Shown: positions 1 through 42,847 of the stretch, piece by piece
Position numbering within the stretch: the first letter of the stretch is position 1
Layout: the number at the start of each line of letters is the position of its first letter
Origin: a virus
Direction: 5' to 3' (one strand)
IMG/VR virus record: IMGVR_UViG_3300046167_000939
Coordinates: 1-47,692 of that record
Length of the DNA stretch: 47,692 nucleotides
Made by a program: the position numbers and the translations under genes
The notes under the pieces: generated by a model
The model's input: the letters and a program-made list of their open reading frames with translations, nothing else
Told to the model about the DNA's origin: nothing
Databases searched by the model: none

Positions 1-528
1 TGCATCAGTTGGATCAAATTTGTCTGTACTTGCAACAGCACCATGAGCAACTGTTGCTGTCTTGTGCTCACGAGAGAATCCGCTACCAGCAAGATCGTAT
101 TGACCGCCGAGTGCATCAGCTCCACCTTGGATAGCCTTACCAGAAGGACCACCATAGATTGACTCAGTTGTCTGATGAGGACCTTCGGCAGAGCCGTATG
201 TGTAATCGAGATAGAAGAGAAGACCACTTGGAAGACTCATTGGTTGAATTGAGACAAGCTCATTTGCAATAAGACCACCGAATACGCGACGAACGATTGG
301 GAATGCAATGTTTGAGAATCCACCGACAGAATCAGCGCCCATTGTGCTACTTTCACGAAGAACTTGAGCAGCTTGGTTCTCAAGAAGAGTAGCCATATTC
401 TCACGATTTGTTTCTTCCATACCACGAAGAAGACCAGTGCGAGACCATTTCTCAACGAGGCGCTTATTTTGCTGGCCTACGTGGCGATCTCTAATACCTT
501 CTGTTAACTTATTAAGTGTAAAACTCAT
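1..528 (-). CDS. gp23: Major capsid protein, T4 gp23-like (3' end cut by window)
   Basis: N-terminal 176 codons of the main shell protein, which assembles on the scaffold into the prohead and is trimmed by the prohead protease. The frame is open from ATG at 528 to the window edge, so the C-terminal two thirds are missing (T4 gp23 is 521 aa). I translated it by hand: it starts MSFTLNKLTEGIRDRH, and contains SNIAFPIVRRVFGGLIANEL and QPMSLPSGLLFYLDYTYGS, the conserved gp23-family block. AAGGAA lies about 9 bases upstream of the ATG. It directly follows the scaffold gene, as in T4 (22 then 23). Base use is far more GC-rich than most of the window: 26 of the first 60 bases are G or C, as in many highly expressed capsid genes. 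Confidence 0.95.
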   Translation of the reverse strand, partial: MSFTLNKLTEGIRDRHVGQQNKRLVEKWSRTGLLRGMEETNRENMATLLENQAAQVLRESSTMGADSVGGFSNIAFPIVRRVFGGLIANELVSIQPMSLPSGLLFYLDYTYGSAEGPHQTTESIYGGPSGKAIQGGADALGGQYDLAGSGFSREHKTATVAHGAVASTDKFDPTDA

Positions 529-571: not shown

Positions 572-2101
572 CTAGTTCTTGATACCAGCGAGGGTTGCCC
601 AACGGTTAAGTGCTACTGATTCGTTTATTGGCTTAGATTGTGCGCTACGAACAGGATTTGAAGAAGAACCAGATTGTCTTCTAGAAGCACTTTCAGAAAG
701 GTTACTATTCCGCTTAGTAGTTCCACTTACAGATGTCTTAGATAGGCTTTCAAAAAGAATTTTAGCCTCACCTAAGGTCTTTGCATCATCAAGTGATTCA
801 ACAATATGACGTTGTTGCTTCATTGTAAGATCTCGATTTTGCATGAGCTTGTTAGCATAAAGGAGCTTCGCGTTAAATAGGTTCATCTCTGAAAGTTGAC
901 TCTTCATTCCAACAAGAGCCTTTTTATATTGAGAAAGCTTGCTTTCTAGCATACGATTCTTGCGTACAACCTTTGCAGCTTTAGTTTTTATCTCATGAAG
1001 CTTGTTGAGTTCTACTCCGTCAACAAATGCTTCACTTTCAGATGACCCTCCGCCAAAGTGTGATGCCATATCTTTCGCTTCACTCTCTCTAAGCGCCTTC
1101 ATTTTTCCAATTTCATTTCTAAGCATATTTTCATCTATTTCGAAGACTGTTTCTGAAGGGTTGGTAGCATCAGAGTCAGCAGTATCGGCATGAGGCTCTT
1201 TACCATCTTCGTTTTCAGTACTATCTGTCTCAAGGAGTCCTTCAAGACTTAAGTCGTCACCTTCATCAACTAGACCAGCAGCAGTTGCCAAATCTTTGAC
1301 AGTCATATCAGCAAGATCTTCTGGACTAAGTTCAATATCATCTGTCTCTTCTGAATCTGCATCTTCTTCTGGATCTGCACTCTCTTCTGGATCTGCACTC
1401 TCTTCTGAATCTGCATCTTCTTCTGAATCTGCATCTTCTTCTGGATCACTCATCATTTCATCTGCATCATCTTCTTTAATCTCTTCATCAATTTCAAAAA
1501 GATCCATTTCTAAAAGATCTTCAAGGCTTTCATTGAGATATTTTCTATTTGAGTGTCTTTTAGACATGTTCTCTAACTCCTTATTTAGTTTATAATATTC
1601 TTTTAATATTTCTTTATTACTCTTAATTATACTGTTTTTACTTAAATTTGAAATTTCACTAACTAAATTTTGATATAGAGTAAAAATTCTATATTTATTT
1701 TCTTCATAGTTATTTGAATTTTCTGCAAGTGTTATTGCTCTTTGTATAGATTTTAGACTTTCATTTAAATCATTAATCTTTTTAATAGAAGCATCTTTTT
1801 TAGCATTGTTATTAATAAGCTTTGTTAGTATTTCTCTTGTTTCATTATTTAATACCAAGTCGTTTTTAGATTCATAAACTTCTTCGTTTTTAGATTCATA
1901 AACTTCTTCGTTATTGATTTTATTTAAAACTTCACTATTATTTTCATCTTTTGGATTTTTTTCTTCAAATAGTTTTTTCTCTACTAATGATTTAATCTGA
2001 GGAGAAATAGATTCAATAATTTGTTGTTTAACTTTTTCTTCTGCAGATAATTTAATTTGTTCTGCAGCTTCGATTGCTTCATTATATAATGTACTACTCA
2101 T
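572..2101 (-). CDS. gp22: Prohead core scaffolding protein, gp22-like, with a long N-terminal extension
   Basis: Internal scaffold around which the capsid shell assembles. Seen: 509 aa, highly charged, mostly helical or coiled in appearance; an acidic tandem repeat (about residues 219-250); many Leu/Ile-x-Glu sites of the kind cut by T4-type prohead proteases; and a C-terminus ending RWATLAGIKN. Position immediately before the capsid gene and downstream of the protease supports gp22. The usual family length is roughly 270-400 aa, so this is long. Residues 1-178 are AT-rich, while residues 179-509 are GC-richer and begin at an internal Met (1567) that has its own strong ribosome-binding site. 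The ORF may therefore be a fusion, or encode two nested products. The start at 2101 has only a weak AGG upstream. The gp22 role is inferred from context and composition; sequence conservation of scaffolds is low. Confidence 0.82.
   Translation of the reverse strand: MSSTLYNEAIEAAEQIKLSAEEKVKQQIIESISPQIKSLVEKKLFEEKNPKDENNSEVLNKINNEEVYESKNEEVYESKNDLVLNNETREILTKLINNNAKKDASIKKINDLNESLKSIQRAITLAENSNNYEENKYRIFTLYQNLVSEISNLSKNSIIKSNKEILKEYYKLNKELENMSKRHSNRKYLNESLEDLLEMDLFEIDEEIKEDDADEMMSDPEEDADSEEDADSEESADPEESADPEEDADSEETDDIELSPEDLADMTVKDLATAAGLVDEGDDLSLEGLLETDSTENEDGKEPHADTADSDATNPSETVFEIDENMLRNEIGKMKALRESEAKDMASHFGGGSSESEAFVDGVELNKLHEIKTKAAKVVRKNRMLESKLSQYKKALVGMKSQLSEMNLFNAKLLYANKLMQNRDLTMKQQRHIVESLDDAKTLGEAKILFESLSKTSVSGTTKRNSNLSESASRRQSGSSSNPVRSAQSKPINESVALNRWATLAGIKN
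1349..1449 (-). repeat. 18-bp tandem repeat encoding acidic hexapeptides in the scaffold
   Basis: Five full 18-base units plus a half unit (1349, 1367, 1385, 1403, 1421, 1439), with two alternating variants (gaat..gcat and ggat..gcac on the + strand). On the coding strand they give six-residue units of the type (D/S)-A-D-(S/P)-E-E. The antisense strand reads as a Ser-rich open frame, which is only a shadow of this repeat. Such slippage-prone acidic tracts are common in scaffolds, and copy number probably varies between relatives. Confidence 0.9.
1577..1583 (-). promoter_or_regulatory. Strong internal ribosome-binding site inside the scaffold gene
   Basis: The coding strand reads TAAGGAG, then nine bases, then ATG at 1567, inside and in frame with the scaffold ORF. 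This is a better Shine-Dalgarno than the one for the annotated start at 2101. The product from 1567 would be 331 aa, beginning MSKRHSNRKYLNESLEDLLE, which is a normal size for a gp22-type scaffold. The junction coincides with a visible rise in GC content. Confidence 0.65.
1860..1907 (-). repeat. 24-bp perfect tandem duplication in the scaffold N-terminal extension
   Basis: Two identical adjacent 24-base copies (1860-1883, 1884-1907) encode a duplicated NEEVYESK octapeptide. In-frame duplication, so the protein simply gains eight residues. Confidence 0.9.
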
Positions 2102-2122: not shown

Positions 2123-2881
2123 TCACTTATATATATTATTTTTTTTCAAAACATTATAATTATCAACAAAGTTTTGATTAGTAGTTCTGTTTAATATATC
2201 ATATGTTGAAGTTTTACCGTCATCATAATCTTCAAAATTAATTTGTGAAGAGCTATTTTTTACAGTTTCAGCACCATCTGTTGTAGGTGTCATATTCATC
2301 TCAAGGTCTGATGATGATCCACGTATGATAATTTTAATTCTTTTTTGTCCATAACCATTTTGTTTTATACCATGTCTGTTAACAGGTAAATGACCTTTTG
2401 GTGGTGCATCTGAAGTATTTGTTGAAGAATTCATGTTTTTATACATGCTACTTTTTCCAGATGATTTAACAATAACATTTCCACTTATATTGTTTCCATA
2501 TTCTGAAAGTATTGTTTCTTTAATAAAATCTTTAAGACAAGATTCTGATATAATGTTGCCATTCATTTCTTTACCTGCAGATAGACCTATTACCGAAGCT
2601 ATACTATTTCCTAGTCCACCTAAACTTGATATATCTTTTCCTTTTTGAGATAAACTATCTGTTGCGCCTCTGTGATATGAAGTGTGAGCTTTATTTTCTA
2701 TCCCTGCATCATTTTGGTCATAATCATCATTTGATTTATCATAGTCAATTAATCCTGCAAGATTGGCTAAATCTCTAACAGACATTCTTTTTAAATCTAT
2801 TTTTGATATAGAAATATTGTTTTTTTCTATATCATTTTTATAATCACTTTCATCGTAATCAAATTCTCCTTTTGGAAGAAC
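2123..2881 (-). CDS. Scaffold-region protein, 3' part of a +1-shifted gene (function unknown)
   Basis: The frame is open from a stop at 2884 down to 2123. The first Met is at 2785 but has no ribosome-binding site, and coding clearly extends above it: SKIDLKR-MSVRDLANLAGLID matches, across the supposed start, the scaffold segment SPEDLADMTVKDLATAAGLVD. The 32 codons above 2785 (VLPKGEFDYDESDYKND...) have the same acidic style as the rest. The likely true gene starts at 3017 in another frame and shifts +1 near 2870. A helix ISESCLKDFIKETILSEYG resembles those of the small neighbours and carries several Ile/Leu-x-Glu sites. It is probably a prohead core or head-associated protein; this is inference from position and the shared motif. 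Confidence 0.7.
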   Translation of the reverse strand, partial: VLPKGEFDYDESDYKNDIEKNNISISKIDLKRMSVRDLANLAGLIDYDKSNDDYDQNDAGIENKAHTSYHRGATDSLSQKGKDISSLGGLGNSIASVIGLSAGKEMNGNIISESCLKDFIKETILSEYGNNISGNVIVKSSGKSSMYKNMNSSTNTSDAPPKGHLPVNRHGIKQNGYGQKRIKIIIRGSSSDLEMNMTPTTDGAETVKNSSSQINFEDYDDGKTSTYDILNRTTNQNFVDNYNVLKKNNIYK

Positions 2882-3017
2882 TTAAAGCATCACCCATACT
2901 CCAATTACTTCCGATTCCTTTTCCAGGACCTCCGCCTAAAGACGCAATCCCTAATCCAGTTCTTCCGTCATAGTTAAAAGACCCTCCAAAAGAGTTAGGG
3001 TTAGTTGTAGAATTCAT
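2859..3017 (-). CDS. 5' part of the same +1-shifted scaffold-region gene (52 codons)
   Basis: ATG at 3017 opens a 52-codon frame ending at TGA 2861-2859: MNSTTNPNSFGGSFNYDGRT..., then a Gly-rich stretch and SNWSMGDALSSSKRRI. It overlaps by 21 bases the +1 frame that continues to 2123. Together they would make a 298-residue protein. The Gly-rich LGGGPGKGIGS segment echoes LGGLGNSIASVIGLS of the downstream part. It follows the 3033-3602 gene by 15 bases; the Shine-Dalgarno is weak (AAG in the stop region of the previous gene). It could also be a separate tiny gene, but then the downstream half has no start. Confidence 0.6.
   Translation of the reverse strand: MNSTTNPNSFGGSFNYDGRTGLGIASLGGGPGKGIGSNWSMGDALSSSKRRI
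2861..2881 (-). other. Candidate +1 frameshift site (AAAA, then AGGAG, then TGA)
   Basis: The only stretch where both frames are open. In the zero frame the codons are TCC AAA AGG AGA ATT TGA. A Lys tRNA could slip +1 from AAA to AAA on the four-A run (2870-2873), giving SSSKGEFDYDES. A Shine-Dalgarno-like AGGAG lies just before ATT TGA, reminiscent of the RF2 (prfB) frameshift signal. A one-base insertion error is the alternative. Confidence 0.5.
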
Positions 3018-3997: not shown

Positions 3998-4408
3998 TCA
4001 TTTGTCAGAAAATGCTAGTGTTGCCCAATTACCTGAAGATTCTGAAAATATGTCCATTGGATCATTTTCGTTAACTGTTTGACTATAAATATCGTTACTC
4101 TTAGAAGAAAATTTATTTGGTTGGTCTAATGAATTTTGTTCTTGCAAAGTTGTCCTTGCTGTGTCTTGTAATATAGAAGCCATAACTGGATCTTTTGTGG
4201 TTTGAGTTATTATTTTATTAGTAGACTCTTCAAATTTATGATTCACAATAACATCTTGGGTATTTTCTTCTTTTATAATATTATTACTTTTATTTAAAAT
4301 CGATTCAGAAAGTTTGTTTGTATTACCATTAGTCAATCCTTCAGCTAATAACTCAACTAAACATTCTTTAACAATACTTTTAAGCATTTTACGACTTACT
4401 TTTGCCAT
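3998..4408 (-). CDS. Small head-module protein with core-type N-terminal helix and WATLA C-terminus
   Basis: 136 aa. ATG 4408 follows GAGG by eight bases. The N-terminus MAKVSRKMLKSIVKECLVEL forms an amphipathic helix; the middle is Asn/Thr-rich and probably disordered; the C-terminus ends SSGNWATLAFSDK, which matches the scaffold C-terminus NRWATLAGIKN. Leu/Ile-x-Glu protease-like sites occur at LAE, LSE and IKE. The start lies immediately after the stop of the 4409-4996 gene. Likely a prohead core component; this is inferred from motifs and location. Confidence 0.75.
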   Translation of the reverse strand: MAKVSRKMLKSIVKECLVELLAEGLTNGNTNKLSESILNKSNNIIKEENTQDVIVNHKFEESTNKIITQTTKDPVMASILQDTARTTLQEQNSLDQPNKFSSKSNDIYSQTVNENDPMDIFSESSGNWATLAFSDK

Positions 4409-4996
4409 TTAAATTACCTCTGGTGAAATATTATCACCTAAAAATTTTTCAACAACACTTTCAAATTCTTTTCGATCTATAACAGTTAGACCTGCTCTCA
4501 ATTCAGGTGTTATTGCTGCAGTATCTTTTAAGTATAAATTAACACATCTTAGTCGTAAAGGATAAGTTTCTTTATTAGCTGCAACATTTATTTTGTTTAT
4601 GTCATTAGCTGAATCTGAGAAACTAAAAAATATATCAACACTATGAGCTTTAGTTATTATTTGAATAAAGTTTGTAATTTTTGGTAAAACAACCTTTTTA
4701 ACTACCGAAAATAAATCAATATTATTATTTTGTTTAAAATTTGTTATAACTTTTTCACCTGCTTCAATAGTATTATTATTGTTATTATCCTTGAAAATAT
4801 CTGTGTCGGGTATTTTGCTGTTTGTAGTAACTGCGTCAGCATCACCAACAGTTCCTACTTCTAACCCATCCGATTTTCTAATTATATGTCTAGTAATAGT
4901 TAAATCTTCAAAGCTCTTAATATATGGTATTGCACTAATTTGATATTCTGGTGTAAAATTGTGTCCAACTGATCTTGGAATATTTGATATTGCCAT
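4409..4996 (-). CDS. Small beta-type virion protein, paralogue A
   Basis: 195 aa starting MAISNIPRSVGHNFTPEYQI. The ATG at 4996 follows TGGAGG by ten bases, and its A is shared with the previous stop (TAATG). It is a tandem paralogue of the gene just upstream: both share the N-terminal 26 residues almost exactly, a central LPKIT..IQ strand, RCVNLY and a C-terminal AGLT.IDRKEF..VVE.FL. This copy carries an extra Asn-rich insert of about 60 residues. Predicted all-beta and soluble; perhaps a capsid decoration or neck-region protein, but I do not recognise a named family. Confidence 0.8.
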   Translation of the reverse strand: MAISNIPRSVGHNFTPEYQISAIPYIKSFEDLTITRHIIRKSDGLEVGTVGDADAVTTNSKIPDTDIFKDNNNNNTIEAGEKVITNFKQNNNIDLFSVVKKVVLPKITNFIQIITKAHSVDIFFSFSDSANDINKINVAANKETYPLRLRCVNLYLKDTAAITPELRAGLTVIDRKEFESVVEKFLGDNISPEVI

Positions 4997-5094
4997 TATG
5001 GTTGTGCCTCCAAAAAAGTTTCAACAACATCTATAAATTCTTTTCGATCTATTGAAGTTAAACCTGCAACAATTTCTAGCTCCTTACCATCATC
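4996..5094 (-). CDS. 3' part of +1-shifted small virion gene, paralogue B
   Basis: After the zero-frame stop at 5092-5090, the +1 frame reads DGKELEIVAGLTSIDRKEF, then a tail ending FLEAQP and TAA at 4998-4996. This matches the C-terminal 30 residues of the neighbouring paralogue (ELRAGLTVIDRKEFESVVEKFL). No start codon with a ribosome-binding site exists for it. Its stop overlaps the next ATG as TAATG, the coupling used elsewhere in this operon, so this frame is evidently the natural end of the gene. Confidence 0.8.
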   Translation of the reverse strand, partial: DDGKELEIVAGLTSIDRKEFIDVVETFLEAQP

Positions 5095-5099
5095 GATCA
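5087..5099 (-). other. Candidate +1 frameshift site (GAT GAT CGA TGA)
   Basis: Zero frame: AAT GAT GAT CGA TGA. The +1 frame continues GAT GAT GGT AAG. A shift at or just before the stop, after the rare Arg codon CGA, restores the paralogous sequence. Unlike the other sites there is no homopolymer here; the context is a GATGAT repeat with an extra C. Confidence 0.6.
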
Positions 5100-5410
5100 T
5101 CATTGAAATATAAATTAACACATCTAATATCAAGAGGAAAGGTCCTATCTGTATTTAATACAATTCCATTTTTCCCAGATTGAGCGTCTGTTTTAGAAAA
5201 ATATACACTTAAAGCTGCAGCTGCTTTGAATTGAATCCATTGAGTTATTTTAGGAAGTTCTACGACATAAACATTATCGTTGTTAACAATGAGTTGTGTA
5301 CCATTATCGTATGTATTTATTACACCAGATCTTATATATGGTATTGCACTAATTTGATATTCTGGTGTAAAATTGTGTCCAACTGATCCTGGAATATTTG
5401 ATATTGCCAT
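5090..5410 (-). CDS. 5' part of small beta-type virion protein, paralogue B
   Basis: Starts at ATG 5410 (MAISNIPGSVGHNFTPEYQ). This start is fixed by paralogy, by GGAG eight bases upstream, and by the TAATG overlap with the protease gene; a GTG three codons earlier is less likely. The zero frame stops after RCVNLYFNDDR, about 30 residues short of its paralogue. The missing residues are present in the +1 frame (4996-5094), giving a predicted full product of 138 aa. Function as for the paralogue: probable beta-rich virion protein, family unknown. Confidence 0.8.
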   Translation of the reverse strand: MAISNIPGSVGHNFTPEYQISAIPYIRSGVINTYDNGTQLIVNNDNVYVVELPKITQWIQFKAAAALSVYFSKTDAQSGKNGIVLNTDRTFPLDIRCVNLYFNDDR

Positions 5411-6012
5411 TATTTCCACTCCATTATGTCATTAAAGATTCTATCAATTCTATCAGATTTATTAAATACATTATTAATAAATTGTGATGATATTTCTTTT
5501 CCTTCTTTCATCATAAAAGCACCAGGTGTAGAAGGTTCACTTACAAAATCCCAACATATAAGTTGAAAGTCGTCTTGAACTATCTGCATGTCTCCTTGTG
5601 ATCTAGTACTTCCTACACCTCTAGAAGATATACCAAGTGTTACACCACTTTCAACAAGTGATTGTAATATTTTTCCACTAGGTGTGTTGAGAATTTCTAC
5701 AATACCGTAAACTATATTGCCTTCCATATACGCTTCTTTTATATTATGTGAAGCATTTTTAAGTTCAACAACAGAAGAGTCTGGATGATCGAGTTCACCT
5801 AATGCTCTGTTTTCTTTAATAAATTTTTGATAATTTCTTATTTCTCTCTCTAGAATATTTTTTGGGTATATACGACCATTCTGATTAAGAGTTTCAGCTT
5901 TTTGAAGAATACCTTTCATAATCAAAGGTTGACCTAGATTCTTTTGTTCTTTAATTATTTTCGGGTCGTATTCAAAGTTAACCCATTCTGTAATAAGTCT
6001 TTGTGCACTCAT
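5410..6012 (-). CDS. gp21: Prohead core protease, T4 gp21-like
   Basis: Serine protease that matures the prohead by cutting scaffold, core and capsid proteins, then itself. 200 aa, close to T4 gp21 (212). Seen: LNQNGRIYPKNIL (42-54), GELDHP with the presumed catalytic His76, SGVTLGISSRGVGS with presumed Ser129 or Ser130, and CWDFVSEPSTPGAFM with Asp155. These are the hallmark blocks of phage prohead proteases of the T4 type. ATG 6012 is preceded by AGGAG. It lies between the portal-side head gene and the scaffold-side genes, as in T4 (20-67-68-21-22-23). Confidence 0.95.
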   Translation of the reverse strand: MSAQRLITEWVNFEYDPKIIKEQKNLGQPLIMKGILQKAETLNQNGRIYPKNILEREIRNYQKFIKENRALGELDHPDSSVVELKNASHNIKEAYMEGNIVYGIVEILNTPSGKILQSLVESGVTLGISSRGVGSTRSQGDMQIVQDDFQLICWDFVSEPSTPGAFMMKEGKEISSQFINNVFNKSDRIDRIFNDIMEWK

Positions 6013-6310: not shown

Positions 6311-6845
6311 TCATTATTTTATAAGTTAGTTTGTCAACTTTTTTTGGAACAAAATTTTCTTGTATAACTTCTTTTTTACTAATTAAATTTTCATGTAGTT
6401 TTACTTCATACTCAGTGATAATATCAAAACTAGGTGTATCACTTCTCCACTCATTTAATAAAGTTTGTATTGTAGCATATCTCCTAAAGTCTTTAACTTT
6501 TTCTTCAAAAATAATACCTTTACCAAAAGAATAATTTAAATCTTTTATAAGAAATGATTTTTCTTCTTCTAATTTTTTATTTTCAAACATATGATTACAT
6601 GCTTTTTTTGCTTCTTTAATTATTGATGTAGCAAGTGTCTCTGAAATGTTTTGAGTTTCTGATAGTGCTTTGAAAAGCTTATACTCTTTATATAATTGAG
6701 AATTTTTTTTAAAATGATTCTTAATTATATTAATTGCTTTTTCGGCGTTTTGATTATCATTCTCCATTAGACTCTTACAAACAAAATTAATTATTTGTTC
6801 ATATATTATTCCAATGTTTCTTTTTTTATTATGATTCTTCGCCAT
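6270..6845 (-). CDS. 5' part of conserved head-region protein (T4 67/68 position)
   Basis: Starts MAKNHNKKRNIGIIYEQIIN at 6845: AAGGA lies eight bases upstream, inside the portal gene's end. The earlier in-frame start (6878) would overlap the portal gene more and lacks this signal. Helical, charged, no membrane segment. The zero frame ends KKVQFETK at 6270, while the natural continuation is in the +1 frame to 6014. It occupies the place of the T4 prohead core genes 67/68, between portal and protease, but shows no sequence I can match to them. The function is probably in head assembly, inferred from order. Confidence 0.78.
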   Translation of the reverse strand: MAKNHNKKRNIGIIYEQIINFVCKSLMENDNQNAEKAINIIKNHFKKNSQLYKEYKLFKALSETQNISETLATSIIKEAKKACNHMFENKKLEEEKSFLIKDLNYSFGKGIIFEEKVKDFRRYATIQTLLNEWRSDTPSFDIITEYEVKLHENLISKKEVIQENFVPKKVDKLTYKIMNEMFNKKVQFETK

Positions 6846-8862
6846 TATCAATTTCCTTATTTTCAAACATATTATCATCTATAATTATATCATAGTCATC
6901 GTTATTTTCTTTTAATAGTTTATTTGTATTAATATTTAAAGAATTAGACATTTTCTCTAGATCTTTTGACATTCTATGTGAAATCTGTTTATCTATGAAA
7001 TTTTTAATCACTGGGCTTTGTGGCATAACACTATCAATAAACAAATTAGAATATGAAGGTGATTCTAATCCTTTTTTACTTAAAGCTCCACCACCTATTT
7101 CATCTTTTTTAAATGGATTGTTTCCATCAAAATTAATAGGATTATCAGATTTTCTATTTCTTGTAAACTTTCCTTTTTTAACTTTTGGACTTGGTTTTAC
7201 AGGATTATTATTGTCTGGTTTTTTGACGTCACTAGCATCGTAAATATCATTAGAGTCAAATTCACTTATTAAATCATCATATTCTGATAGATCGTCTTCA
7301 GACATTATTTTTCCTTTTTTAATTTCACCTGAAAATAACCCGCCTGAATCTTCTTCAGAATCACTACTTTGACTCGAACTTGCAATATCATCCATAGGAC
7401 TTAATTCCTTTTCAGAGTCTTCATTATCTTCGTCACCAAATATATTATTTTTTGATTCTGGTAGTTGAAGAACTTCAAGTTCCATTTCTCTAATTTTATC
7501 TTTATCTCTTCCTTTTTCTATTCTAGTTATTTCATCATCATTAAGCTCAATAATATGTTTTCTAATCCATTCTCTATCAACAAATCCTTCAGGTGCTTGT
7601 GCAGCAATTTCAAATTTAGTTCTAATTATCTCTAGTTTTTGTTGTTGAGCAATACTCGAAGGATTACATAATTTCAATTGAAAGTCTAATAGAGATTCAT
7701 CTGTGTATCCATGTGAGTATAAATGAATCATTGCTACTTTATTTAACTCAGAAATAATTGTTTTTTGTATTCTCTGGATAGTTCTACTAAATCTTATATC
7801 TTCTTGAGCTAAAGTTGCTTTTGCACCAATATCTTCATCATAACCTAAATAAGCTTTTGGTATTTTAAGAGCAGCAAATAGTTTCTTTTGAATATATTCA
7901 ACATCTTCTATTGCTGTTGTATTTGATCCACCAGCTAATGTCTCGATTCTAGTTCCACTTTCACCACCTCTAACTGGCAAGAAATAATCTTCGTCAACTG
8001 ATAATGGATTATATCTTAAGTCAACTTGACCAGTATTTTTATCTACAACAGCGTTTCTTTTTAAAGAAGTCTGAGCTTGCTCTAAATAGTCTGCAATGTT
8101 TTCAGGTGGAATATTACCTACGTCTATGTAGAAAACCCTTCTTTCAGGAGACCTAATGACTCTATAGACTAACATAGCATCTTCAATAAGTATTAATTGT
8201 CTCCAAACTCTTCTCGCACCTTCTAATACTGATGAACCATAAGGTAAAAAAGCATCACTTCCGAGGAGTCTAAAGTGAGAAACTTGCCAATTTTCTAAAA
8301 CTCTATTTCCTTGTGTTACCCATCTAAATCTTACAGCACCTGGGTCATTTGAATCAAATCCCTCTTCTCTTTCAATTTCAGATATTGGTATTGGAAAACA
8401 ATTTACAACACCGTATTCAGGATGTATATCATTAAACAAAAAGAAATCTCCATATTTACAAAGATTTCTAACCCACATAACTAAATTAAAATCAACATTA
8501 AGAACATCATAAAAAAGTTCATCTAATATTTTTTTAACCATTTTATTTTCAGAATAAATATTTAGTATTGTTCCTTCTACATCAGGAGAAACACATTCTT
8601 CAGCGTAAATATCTAAAGCTGAAGATATTTCAGGTGTTCCTTCCATTTCTGAAAAGTCTGAGTATCTTGACATTCTATCATATGAACCATAAGCTCTAAG
8701 TGTACTATTATAAACATCACTATGAGCCTTCTTAAAAACTTCTAAAGAAGATTTTGAATATGATCCTTTTTTTTCTAAATTCTTGATTTTTCTTTTAACT
8801 ACGGGACCTGATCTAAACAGACTAGTAAGTTTTTTAAATAAATTATTATTATTATCTGGCAT
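6829..8862 (-). CDS. gp20: Portal vertex protein, T4 gp20-like
   Basis: Dodecameric ring at the DNA-entry vertex, binding terminase and nucleating head assembly. 677 aa (T4 gp20 is 524). The N-terminal two thirds carry the family blocks: SRYSDFSEMEGTPEISSALD, LCKYGDFFLF, RSPERRVFYIDVGNIP, and IPKAYLGYDEDIGAKATLAQ with EDIRFSRTIQRIQ. From about residue 470 there is a long acidic, Ser/Asp-rich tail with Lys-rich patches, an extension beyond the usual core. Directly follows terminase (TAA then ATG, touching), and the next gene starts inside its 3' end. Confidence 0.94.
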   Translation of the reverse strand: MPDNNNNLFKKLTSLFRSGPVVKRKIKNLEKKGSYSKSSLEVFKKAHSDVYNSTLRAYGSYDRMSRYSDFSEMEGTPEISSALDIYAEECVSPDVEGTILNIYSENKMVKKILDELFYDVLNVDFNLVMWVRNLCKYGDFFLFNDIHPEYGVVNCFPIPISEIEREEGFDSNDPGAVRFRWVTQGNRVLENWQVSHFRLLGSDAFLPYGSSVLEGARRVWRQLILIEDAMLVYRVIRSPERRVFYIDVGNIPPENIADYLEQAQTSLKRNAVVDKNTGQVDLRYNPLSVDEDYFLPVRGGESGTRIETLAGGSNTTAIEDVEYIQKKLFAALKIPKAYLGYDEDIGAKATLAQEDIRFSRTIQRIQKTIISELNKVAMIHLYSHGYTDESLLDFQLKLCNPSSIAQQQKLEIIRTKFEIAAQAPEGFVDREWIRKHIIELNDDEITRIEKGRDKDKIREMELEVLQLPESKNNIFGDEDNEDSEKELSPMDDIASSSQSSDSEEDSGGLFSGEIKKGKIMSEDDLSEYDDLISEFDSNDIYDASDVKKPDNNNPVKPSPKVKKGKFTRNRKSDNPINFDGNNPFKKDEIGGGALSKKGLESPSYSNLFIDSVMPQSPVIKNFIDKQISHRMSKDLEKMSNSLNINTNKLLKENNDDYDIIIDDNMFENKEIDNGEES

Positions 8863-41777: not shown

Positions 41778-42847
41778 AAGAAATAATTTAAACTATCAAT
41801 AATATTAATACTTCTAGCAGAAACATTATGATCTTCTCCTCCTCCAAATTTATATTTAATATTTATTGTTTTCCCAGCTGGTGAAACACCTAGACTATTA
41901 CTATTAATTAATTTTTTAGGGTCTAATGAATAACTTCCAATATAGTCTCTAGATAATAAAGGTAATGCAATTTCTTCAGGATTAGTTAAAACACCATTTT
42001 CGTTAACTACGTTTCCATTACTATTTCCAAATCTAATTGTAGTTAAACCATCTTCAAAGTCTCTTTCTAAAATATATCTAAAAGCTGCAGGTACTACATT
42101 AAAGTATGCATTTTCTCCTAAATCAACTTTTTCATAAACAGTGTCTTGTGATAAAAATTCAACTTCTTTATATTCATTTATATCTGAAGAATTATCGTTA
42201 ACTTTAAATATTTTTGTTATATTTTCATTACTTAATGTATAAGATAAAAAATTATCAACGCTATTTTCGTCGAACATAAAAGATTCGTTTATAATATTAC
42301 CAGATATACAAATACCTTCTTTTTTAAGCATTAAATATCTTGTACCTCCAACAAATACTTCTTGGATAATATTAATATCTTTTGAAAAATCAACATTTTC
42401 TTCTAGGATAAATGTTATATCATCAATCGATCTTAGTTGTGTCTCTCTTTTTATAATAGGAAGGTATTCTTTTTGAGGCATATCCATATTATTAATAGCA
42501 GGGACGATCATATAAAAAGAAACTTCAACACTTGAAGGTGAAGCAAAACCTGACTTTATATTAGCTTTTCTTAAATGATTCAACAAACTATATTCTGTTG
42601 ATGCTGTTTCATAATCTAATTCGTTAATTTGCTGATCAATGTAAAAAGTTAAAGACTCACCTACAATCGCTGCAAAGTCGAGAAGCATACCGCCAAGAGA
42701 AGATTCAGAAAAATCAGAAATTCTATCAGGAAAATTGCTCCTTGCATAATCTAAAAGCTCACTTTTAAATTCTTCTTTATTTTTATTAATGAGTCTTTTT
42801 CTATTAAAATAATTTTTTTCTTTATTAAGAATGCTTACGTTTGACAC
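41759..42847 (-). CDS. gp6: Baseplate wedge gp6-like protein, N-terminal part
   Basis: 362 aa from GTG at 42847, with GAGG nine bases upstream. The N-terminal block LLDYARSNFPDRISDFSESS followed by LGGMLLDFAAIVGESLTFYI and DQQINELDYETA is the hallmark of the T4 gp6/baseplate J-like family. A beta-rich middle has TTIRFGNSNG and KYKFGGGEDHNVSARSI, which normally lies mid-protein, showing the ORF is truncated here by a stop at 41759. It overlaps and precedes the +1 continuation. Located between gp25 and a DNRLRE-type protein. Wedge proteins gp25 and gp6 act together with gp53 in T4. Confidence 0.93.
   Translation of the reverse strand: MSNVSILNKEKNYFNRKRLINKNKEEFKSELLDYARSNFPDRISDFSESSLGGMLLDFAAIVGESLTFYIDQQINELDYETASTEYSLLNHLRKANIKSGFASPSSVEVSFYMIVPAINNMDMPQKEYLPIIKRETQLRSIDDITFILEENVDFSKDINIIQEVFVGGTRYLMLKKEGICISGNIINESFMFDENSVDNFLSYTLSNENITKIFKVNDNSSDINEYKEVEFLSQDTVYEKVDLGENAYFNVVPAAFRYILERDFEDGLTTIRFGNSNGNVVNENGVLTNPEEIALPLLSRDYIGSYSLDPKKLINSNSLGVSPAGKTINIKYKFGGGEDHNVSARSINIIDSLNYFFPPFIK

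Follow-up and report, generated by a model that had tools for sequence, protein, structure and literature searches.

The scaffold gene of the virus analyzed here raises the question of whether a single T4-type head gene, read by an ordinary ORF search as one protein, encodes two scaffold proteins from two start sites. The window, by which we mean the whole stretch of DNA analyzed, is the IMG/VR virus record IMGVR_UViG_3300046167_000939 (47,692 bases), and its minus strand contains a T4-type head module composed of a portal, a prohead protease, several small ORFs, an ORF in the scaffold position, and gp23. The main components are as follows.

6829..8862, minus strand: T4-type portal gp20 (Pfam Portal_T4, E 7.8e-80)
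5410..6012, minus strand: separate prohead protease gene of the gp21 type (Pfam Peptidase_S77, E 4.9e-29)
572..2101, minus strand: scaffold ORF, long form, 509 aa, in the gp22 position (neighbors identified; the ORF itself has no family match)
1..528, minus strand: major capsid protein gp23, with its 3' part lost at the end of the window (Pfam Gp23, E 3.3e-12)

The scaffold ORF thus lies between the gp21-type protease and gp23 and downstream of gp20, as expected for a T4-type gp22, with the small ORFs intervening between the protease and scaffold genes. Neither Pfam at E 0.01 nor PHROG gives it a significant match, and when its relatives are scanned as well the two databases return scattered weak matches only. 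Comparison by hhalign of a 49-row profile of its C-terminal part (the C part, downstream of the internal start described below) with the single T4 gp22 sequence gives E 0.34 over 26 columns, and there is nothing significant between T4 gp22, gp67 or gp68 and the profiles of either the C part or the N part that precedes it.

The internal start and the protein predicted to begin there are defined by three features.

1577..1582, minus strand: internal Shine-Dalgarno (SD) sequence AAGGAG, doubling as Lys-Glu codons (sequence and conservation)
1565..1567, minus strand: internal in-frame ATG (Met179); Met is aligned at this column in 96 of 101 distinct ORFs
572..1567, minus strand: predicted short form, 331 aa, N-terminus MSKRHSN (start conserved in relatives; its own gene in locus L065)

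The spacer from GGAG to the ATG at 1567 is 9 nt, and 178 residues of the 509-aa ORF lie upstream of the ATG. The first-pass annotation of this DNA had described an in-frame internal start with an optimal ribosome-binding site at a compositional boundary, and both parts of that description are confirmed in the sequence: AAGGAG stands at the stated spacing from ATG 1567, and the boundary is real, since the GC content is 22.1% in the N part (11.2% at third positions) and 39.3% in the C part (24.7%), with 25.3% for the window as a whole. Among 189 internal in-frame ATGs in window ORFs of at least 100 aa, two have anti-SD pairing of -8 kcal/mol or lower, one of them being ATG 1567; these energies use the usual bacterial anti-SD and assume that of the hosts to be the same. 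The other very strong SD is GGAGGT (-10.6) before the ATG at 42331 (minus strand), inside the ORF at 42871-41762.

A search with the full ORF, using six search peptides of which none spans the junction between the N and C parts, yielded 80 viral loci. Eight were dropped, seven that are cut by a contig start and the split locus L065, leaving a junction set that with the window has 73 rows and 59 distinct sequences. All 59 distinct junctions have xxGGAG, with a spacer of 9 nt in 57 and 6 nt in 2, and 51 have AAGGAG; elsewhere in the same ORFs AAGGAG encodes Lys-Glu in 15 of 176 cases, and the background of a GAG Glu codon following a G-ending codon is 84 of 4272 (2.0%). A second search, with an N-part profile, gave 80 rows that partly overlap the first set, and searching the N part alone against viral contigs gave six loci, five of them on contigs of the full-ORF search. 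Across the 101 distinct ORFs, a Met with an SD of -5.5 or lower is found within 14 residues of the aligned column in 96, and with an SD of -7 or lower in 93. The exceptions are L139, L140 and L142, a single small group with no SD at the position; L153, which has no convincing SD; and L159, which has an SD and ATG elsewhere with a spacer of 6. Two MAG contigs from another genome collection both have AAGGAG-9-ATG at the junction. All relatives bearing the internal start are metagenomic or MAG contigs; in the phages collection no isolate with the internal start was found, and the isolates immuto and Mel-JY01 do not have it.

The organization of the gene is equally constant. Among 158 loci (redundant by contig) the N and C parts are in one ORF in 145, ten have the C part only and all ten begin at a contig start, and one, at a contig end, consists of the N part alone. 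The remaining two are L062 (5081-6657), with a frame break within the N part and the internal start intact, and L065, in which two separate genes are split exactly at the junction and TAAGGAG provides a stop codon overlapping the SD. Relatives with separate genes, which were looked for as a sign of the fusion that the first-pass annotation had proposed, are therefore represented by this one split locus as against 145 fused ones. That annotation also held that a single full-length scaffold product, together with a full-length fusion conserved in all relatives, would speak against its proposal; of these two, the fused frame is indeed kept in nearly all relatives, as is the internal start.

A single SD-ATG of this kind proves little, because the Glu-rich scaffolds of an immuto-like outgroup often provide one by chance: if the best of all internal Mets is taken, the SD reaches -7 or lower in 43 of 66 outgroup ORFs, reflecting the resemblance of Glu-rich codons to SD sequences. 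What makes the internal start significant is that its position is fixed. In the clade to which the window scaffold belongs (n=85, deduplicated) one alignment column has Met with an SD of -7 or lower in 78 ORFs and the runner-up column in 7, whereas the best such column in the outgroup (n=42, deduplicated) reaches 9. By this comparison of alignment columns, the internal SD-ATG of the scaffold clade is far beyond chance.

The signal is also a strong one. In 76 deduplicated representatives the mean SD is -8.6 kcal/mol for the internal start, -5.0 for the ORF's own start, and -7.5 for the gp23 start, and the ORF's own SD is the weaker of the two in 73 of the 76, although the internal set was picked for GGAG and the own starts were not, and SD strength is not equal to translation rate. 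Averaged over 73 loci, 62% of GC-matched windows from the same ORF are more structured than the internal start region. Measured against the gp23 of the same locus, the codon usage index is 0.58 for the C part and 0.50 for the N part, with the C part higher in 55 of 59. At the junction there is a codon-usage step of +0.075, with GC at synonymous third positions rising in 65 of 76, but this lends weak support, as steps of like size occur inside gp23 (-0.066 and +0.060) and the individual change points in codon usage scatter widely (median +126 codons); we dropped it as decisive proof of higher expression for the former reason. A separate internal promoter was also considered. The T4-late-like sequence TATAAATA occurs in exact form upstream of 6 of 75 own starts, 3 of 76 internal starts and 3 of 68 gp23 starts, and at 0 of 380 random places, and the count at internal starts is insufficient for such an assignment.

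The N part of the long form has two predicted helical elements.

1964..2098, minus strand: N-terminal helix, residues 2-46, ancestral in the scaffold family (AlphaFold; outgroup scaffolds have it)
1568..1846, minus strand: bundle of helices, residues 86-178, in the long form only (mean pLDDT 81.9 in the AlphaFold model of the N part)

The N-part model has a low-confidence stretch at residues 50-78 and shows the bundle at 86-177, and the full-length model has a mean pLDDT of 66.5. A fold search with the N-part model finds no match at E <= 0.001 in PDB or BFVD, the top PDB rows being generic helical bundles. The N-part profile matches the N-termini of the scaffolds of immuto (E 5.4e-12) and Mel-JY01 (E 7.1e-11), the best match to immuto ending at profile position 122 of about 200, so that most of the bundle is outside it. 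With ORFs open at a contig start excluded, all 85 outgroup ORFs have the N-terminal helix, and because it is found at the N-terminus of outgroup scaffolds that have no conserved internal start, it is the scaffold's own N-terminus. Judged from these profile matches and alignments, the first ~45 residues are the ancestral N-terminus of the scaffold family, and what goes with this clade is the helical bundle together with the internal start. In a tree built from the conserved core (85 rows), the clade is set apart from three outgroup scaffolds with 98% SH-aLRT support.

The part of the gene common to both predicted forms includes a candidate processing site and two conserved segments.

1493..1501, minus strand: Leu-Phe-Glu, 25 residues in from the short-form N-terminus, a candidate site for gp21-type (L/I-X-E) cleavage (no change of Glu203 among 48 chosen rows)
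722..1147, minus strand: conserved scaffold core, about residues 319-460, containing NLFNAKLLYANKL (alignment)
581..604, minus strand: C-terminal RWATLAGI motif (alignment)

The N-terminus of the short form is basic, with a mean net charge of +2.0 over its first eight residues and a positive charge in 63 of 76. In 69 of 76 the first 60 residues from the internal Met include L/I-[FY]-E, the median position of the Glu being 15; elsewhere this tripeptide is found 42 times among the 14,748 residues of the N parts and 45 times among the 20,910 residues of the remaining C parts. A passage of PMC9026906 gives the rule that T4 gp21 cuts after L/I-X-E, and passages of PMC9026906 and PMC9958956 describe the N-terminal targeting peptides of T4 internal proteins as being removed at L/I-X-E. 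By its anatomy, the short-form N-terminus may be likened to these cleaved targeting peptides.

We propose, with a probability of about 0.8, that this is one gene with two starts, encoding a minor long and a major short head scaffold. Ribosomes starting at 2101 would produce the long scaffold of 509 aa, with the N-terminal helix, the bundle, an acidic middle and the C-terminal core, and those starting at 1567 would produce the short scaffold of 331 aa, which shares the acidic middle and the core and opens with a basic N-terminus leading into a gp21-type L-[FY]-E site. We infer that both are probably made, since a strong internal start has been kept in place in nearly all examined relatives, and that the short form is probably the bulk scaffold, since the internal ribosome-binding site is much the stronger. 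The long form would then probably be the minor partner, entering the same core by way of the C-terminal part common to both, and its N-terminal module may have a low-copy job, for instance in core nucleation at the portal or in fixing the core size; such a role is conjecture. A more tentative and somewhat doubtful extension is that the ratio of long to short form, set by two unequal ribosome-binding sites, acts as a built-in gauge, with rare long molecules seeding the core at the portal or limiting its size and short ones filling it, and that with the internal start the bulk scaffold also gained a new processed N-terminal peptide, basic and terminating in L-[FY]-E.

Other explanations account for parts of these data. 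The first-pass annotation had seen in residues 1-178 a separate small core protein fused to gp22; such a protein could be gp67/gp68-like, and the internal start would be the old gp22 start. The exact split at the junction in L065 and the position of the bundle, mostly outside the best N-part match to the immuto scaffold, speak for this, but the helix is the scaffold N-terminus in all 85 outgroup ORFs, the N-part profile finds nothing in T4 gp67 or gp68, and one locus in 158 (redundant by contig) is split. L065 itself is inside the clade on a long branch, its place there unsure, and for this reason its separate genes look more like a later fission. With an ancestral helix and a fused frame in 145 of 158 loci the claim is mostly unsupported, and we regard it as improbable. 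The other part of that annotation, a nested start, has strong support.

It is less probable still that the short form alone matters, with a weak upstream start and an N part that serves the internal start chiefly as leader or regulator. This would agree with the weakness of the ORF's own SD and with L062, where the N-part frame is broken and the internal start is not; against it, the N part is kept as protein, first helix included, across relatives of 15-60% identity and into the outgroup, and the frame is open in 145 of 158 loci, 11 others missing one part at a contig end. The least credible alternative, to which we give very little weight, is that Lys-Glu and Met are kept for the needs of the protein only and resemble a ribosome-binding site incidentally. 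In one alignment of 48 rows neither Glu175 nor Met179 varies, and Glu-rich scaffolds do yield SD-like strings by chance, yet the residues neighboring these two are not conserved. The synonymous choice is moreover fixed (AAGGAG in 51 and xxGGAG in 59 of 59, against AAGGAG for 15 of 176 Lys-Glu pairs elsewhere), and no relative in the junction set keeps Lys-Glu-x-x-x-Met with AAAGAA codons. As the residue preceding the junction Glu may be Lys, Glu, Gln, Arg or Leu, and as GGAG is in a different frame (Ile-Gly) in L112 and L146 yet 8 nt upstream of the Met, it is the nucleotides that are kept and not the amino acids alone.

The two-start reading has parallels in other viruses. Shaw and Murialdo reportedly described in 1980 how, in the C / Nu3 pair of phage lambda, a scaffold arises from an in-frame start within a longer head gene and shares its C-terminus; the long product of that pair is the protease. 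The first-pass annotation had drawn this parallel, and the nesting holds in that an in-frame internal start gives a C-terminal scaffold, here at the sequence level only, but the comparison does not extend to the long form, whose N part is helical with no Pfam match or protease domain, the protease being the separate gene at 5410-6012. In herpesvirus UL26/UL26.5 a nested scaffold likewise shares the C-terminus of a longer product, with a separate promoter and with the protease in the long form, and nested scaffolds are known as protease-scaffold pairs. If both products are made, the present gene would instead pair two scaffolds, in a T4-type head whose protease is encoded separately. Closer to hand, the scaffolds of Flavobacterium phage immuto and Microcystis phage Mel-JY01 have a homologous N-terminal helix, acidic middle, core, and C-terminal R(W/M)xKLAGI, but the immuto-like group has no conserved internal start and its N-part match consists of the helix and an acidic stretch with little of the bundle.

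T4 itself offers a precedent for a second in-frame start in a head-core gene. An internal start is annotated in gene 21 of NC_000866, where gene 22 has no annotated second start, and a passage of PMC9026906 states that the short gene 21 product, gp21s, from Met45, is also essential for head assembly; the nested start is thus in the protease gene in T4 and in the scaffold gene here. The T4 core is described in part of PMC9958956 as a mixture of species, with ~580 copies of gp22, ~340 of gp67, ~240 of gp68 and ~55 of gp21. A few phrasings tried in the open-licence literature found no description of such a two-start T4-type scaffold. Because an ordinary ORF search gives one scaffold, a second head-assembly protein would have been missed throughout a diverse clade, and core nucleation and size setting in T4-type heads, an old question, would become testable through the start-site ratio.

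Several features of the neighboring ORFs are also of note. The 136-aa ORF at 3998..4408 (minus strand) has the C-terminus NWATLAFSDK, very like the RWATLAGIK of the scaffold, and it starts with MAKVSRKMLKSIVKECLVELLAEGL, basic residues and then L-x-E. Of 55 representative loci having enough flank, 48 have a small ORF with a WAxLA[FG] end upstream of the scaffold, and this type of C-terminus may be a shared head-targeting tag. The ORF upstream of the scaffold (2123..3017, minus strand) is interrupted by a frame change near 2880, at an AAAA run, and its two pieces match a single ORF in many relatives (e.g. L023 5077-5937); the change is either a sequencing error, an assembly error or real decay. 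A TVKDLAxxAGLVD-type motif is present both in this upstream protein (2123..2785, minus strand) and in the acidic part of the scaffold (572..2101, minus strand), and is found in both proteins in L003, L004, L006, L010, L014, L023 and L033, seven among the 22 close loci listed. Finally, the ORFs at 4409..4996 and 5090..5419 (minus strand) have nearly identical N-termini (MAISNIPxSVGHNFTPEYQISAIPYI) and then diverge, perhaps reflecting a recent partial duplication.
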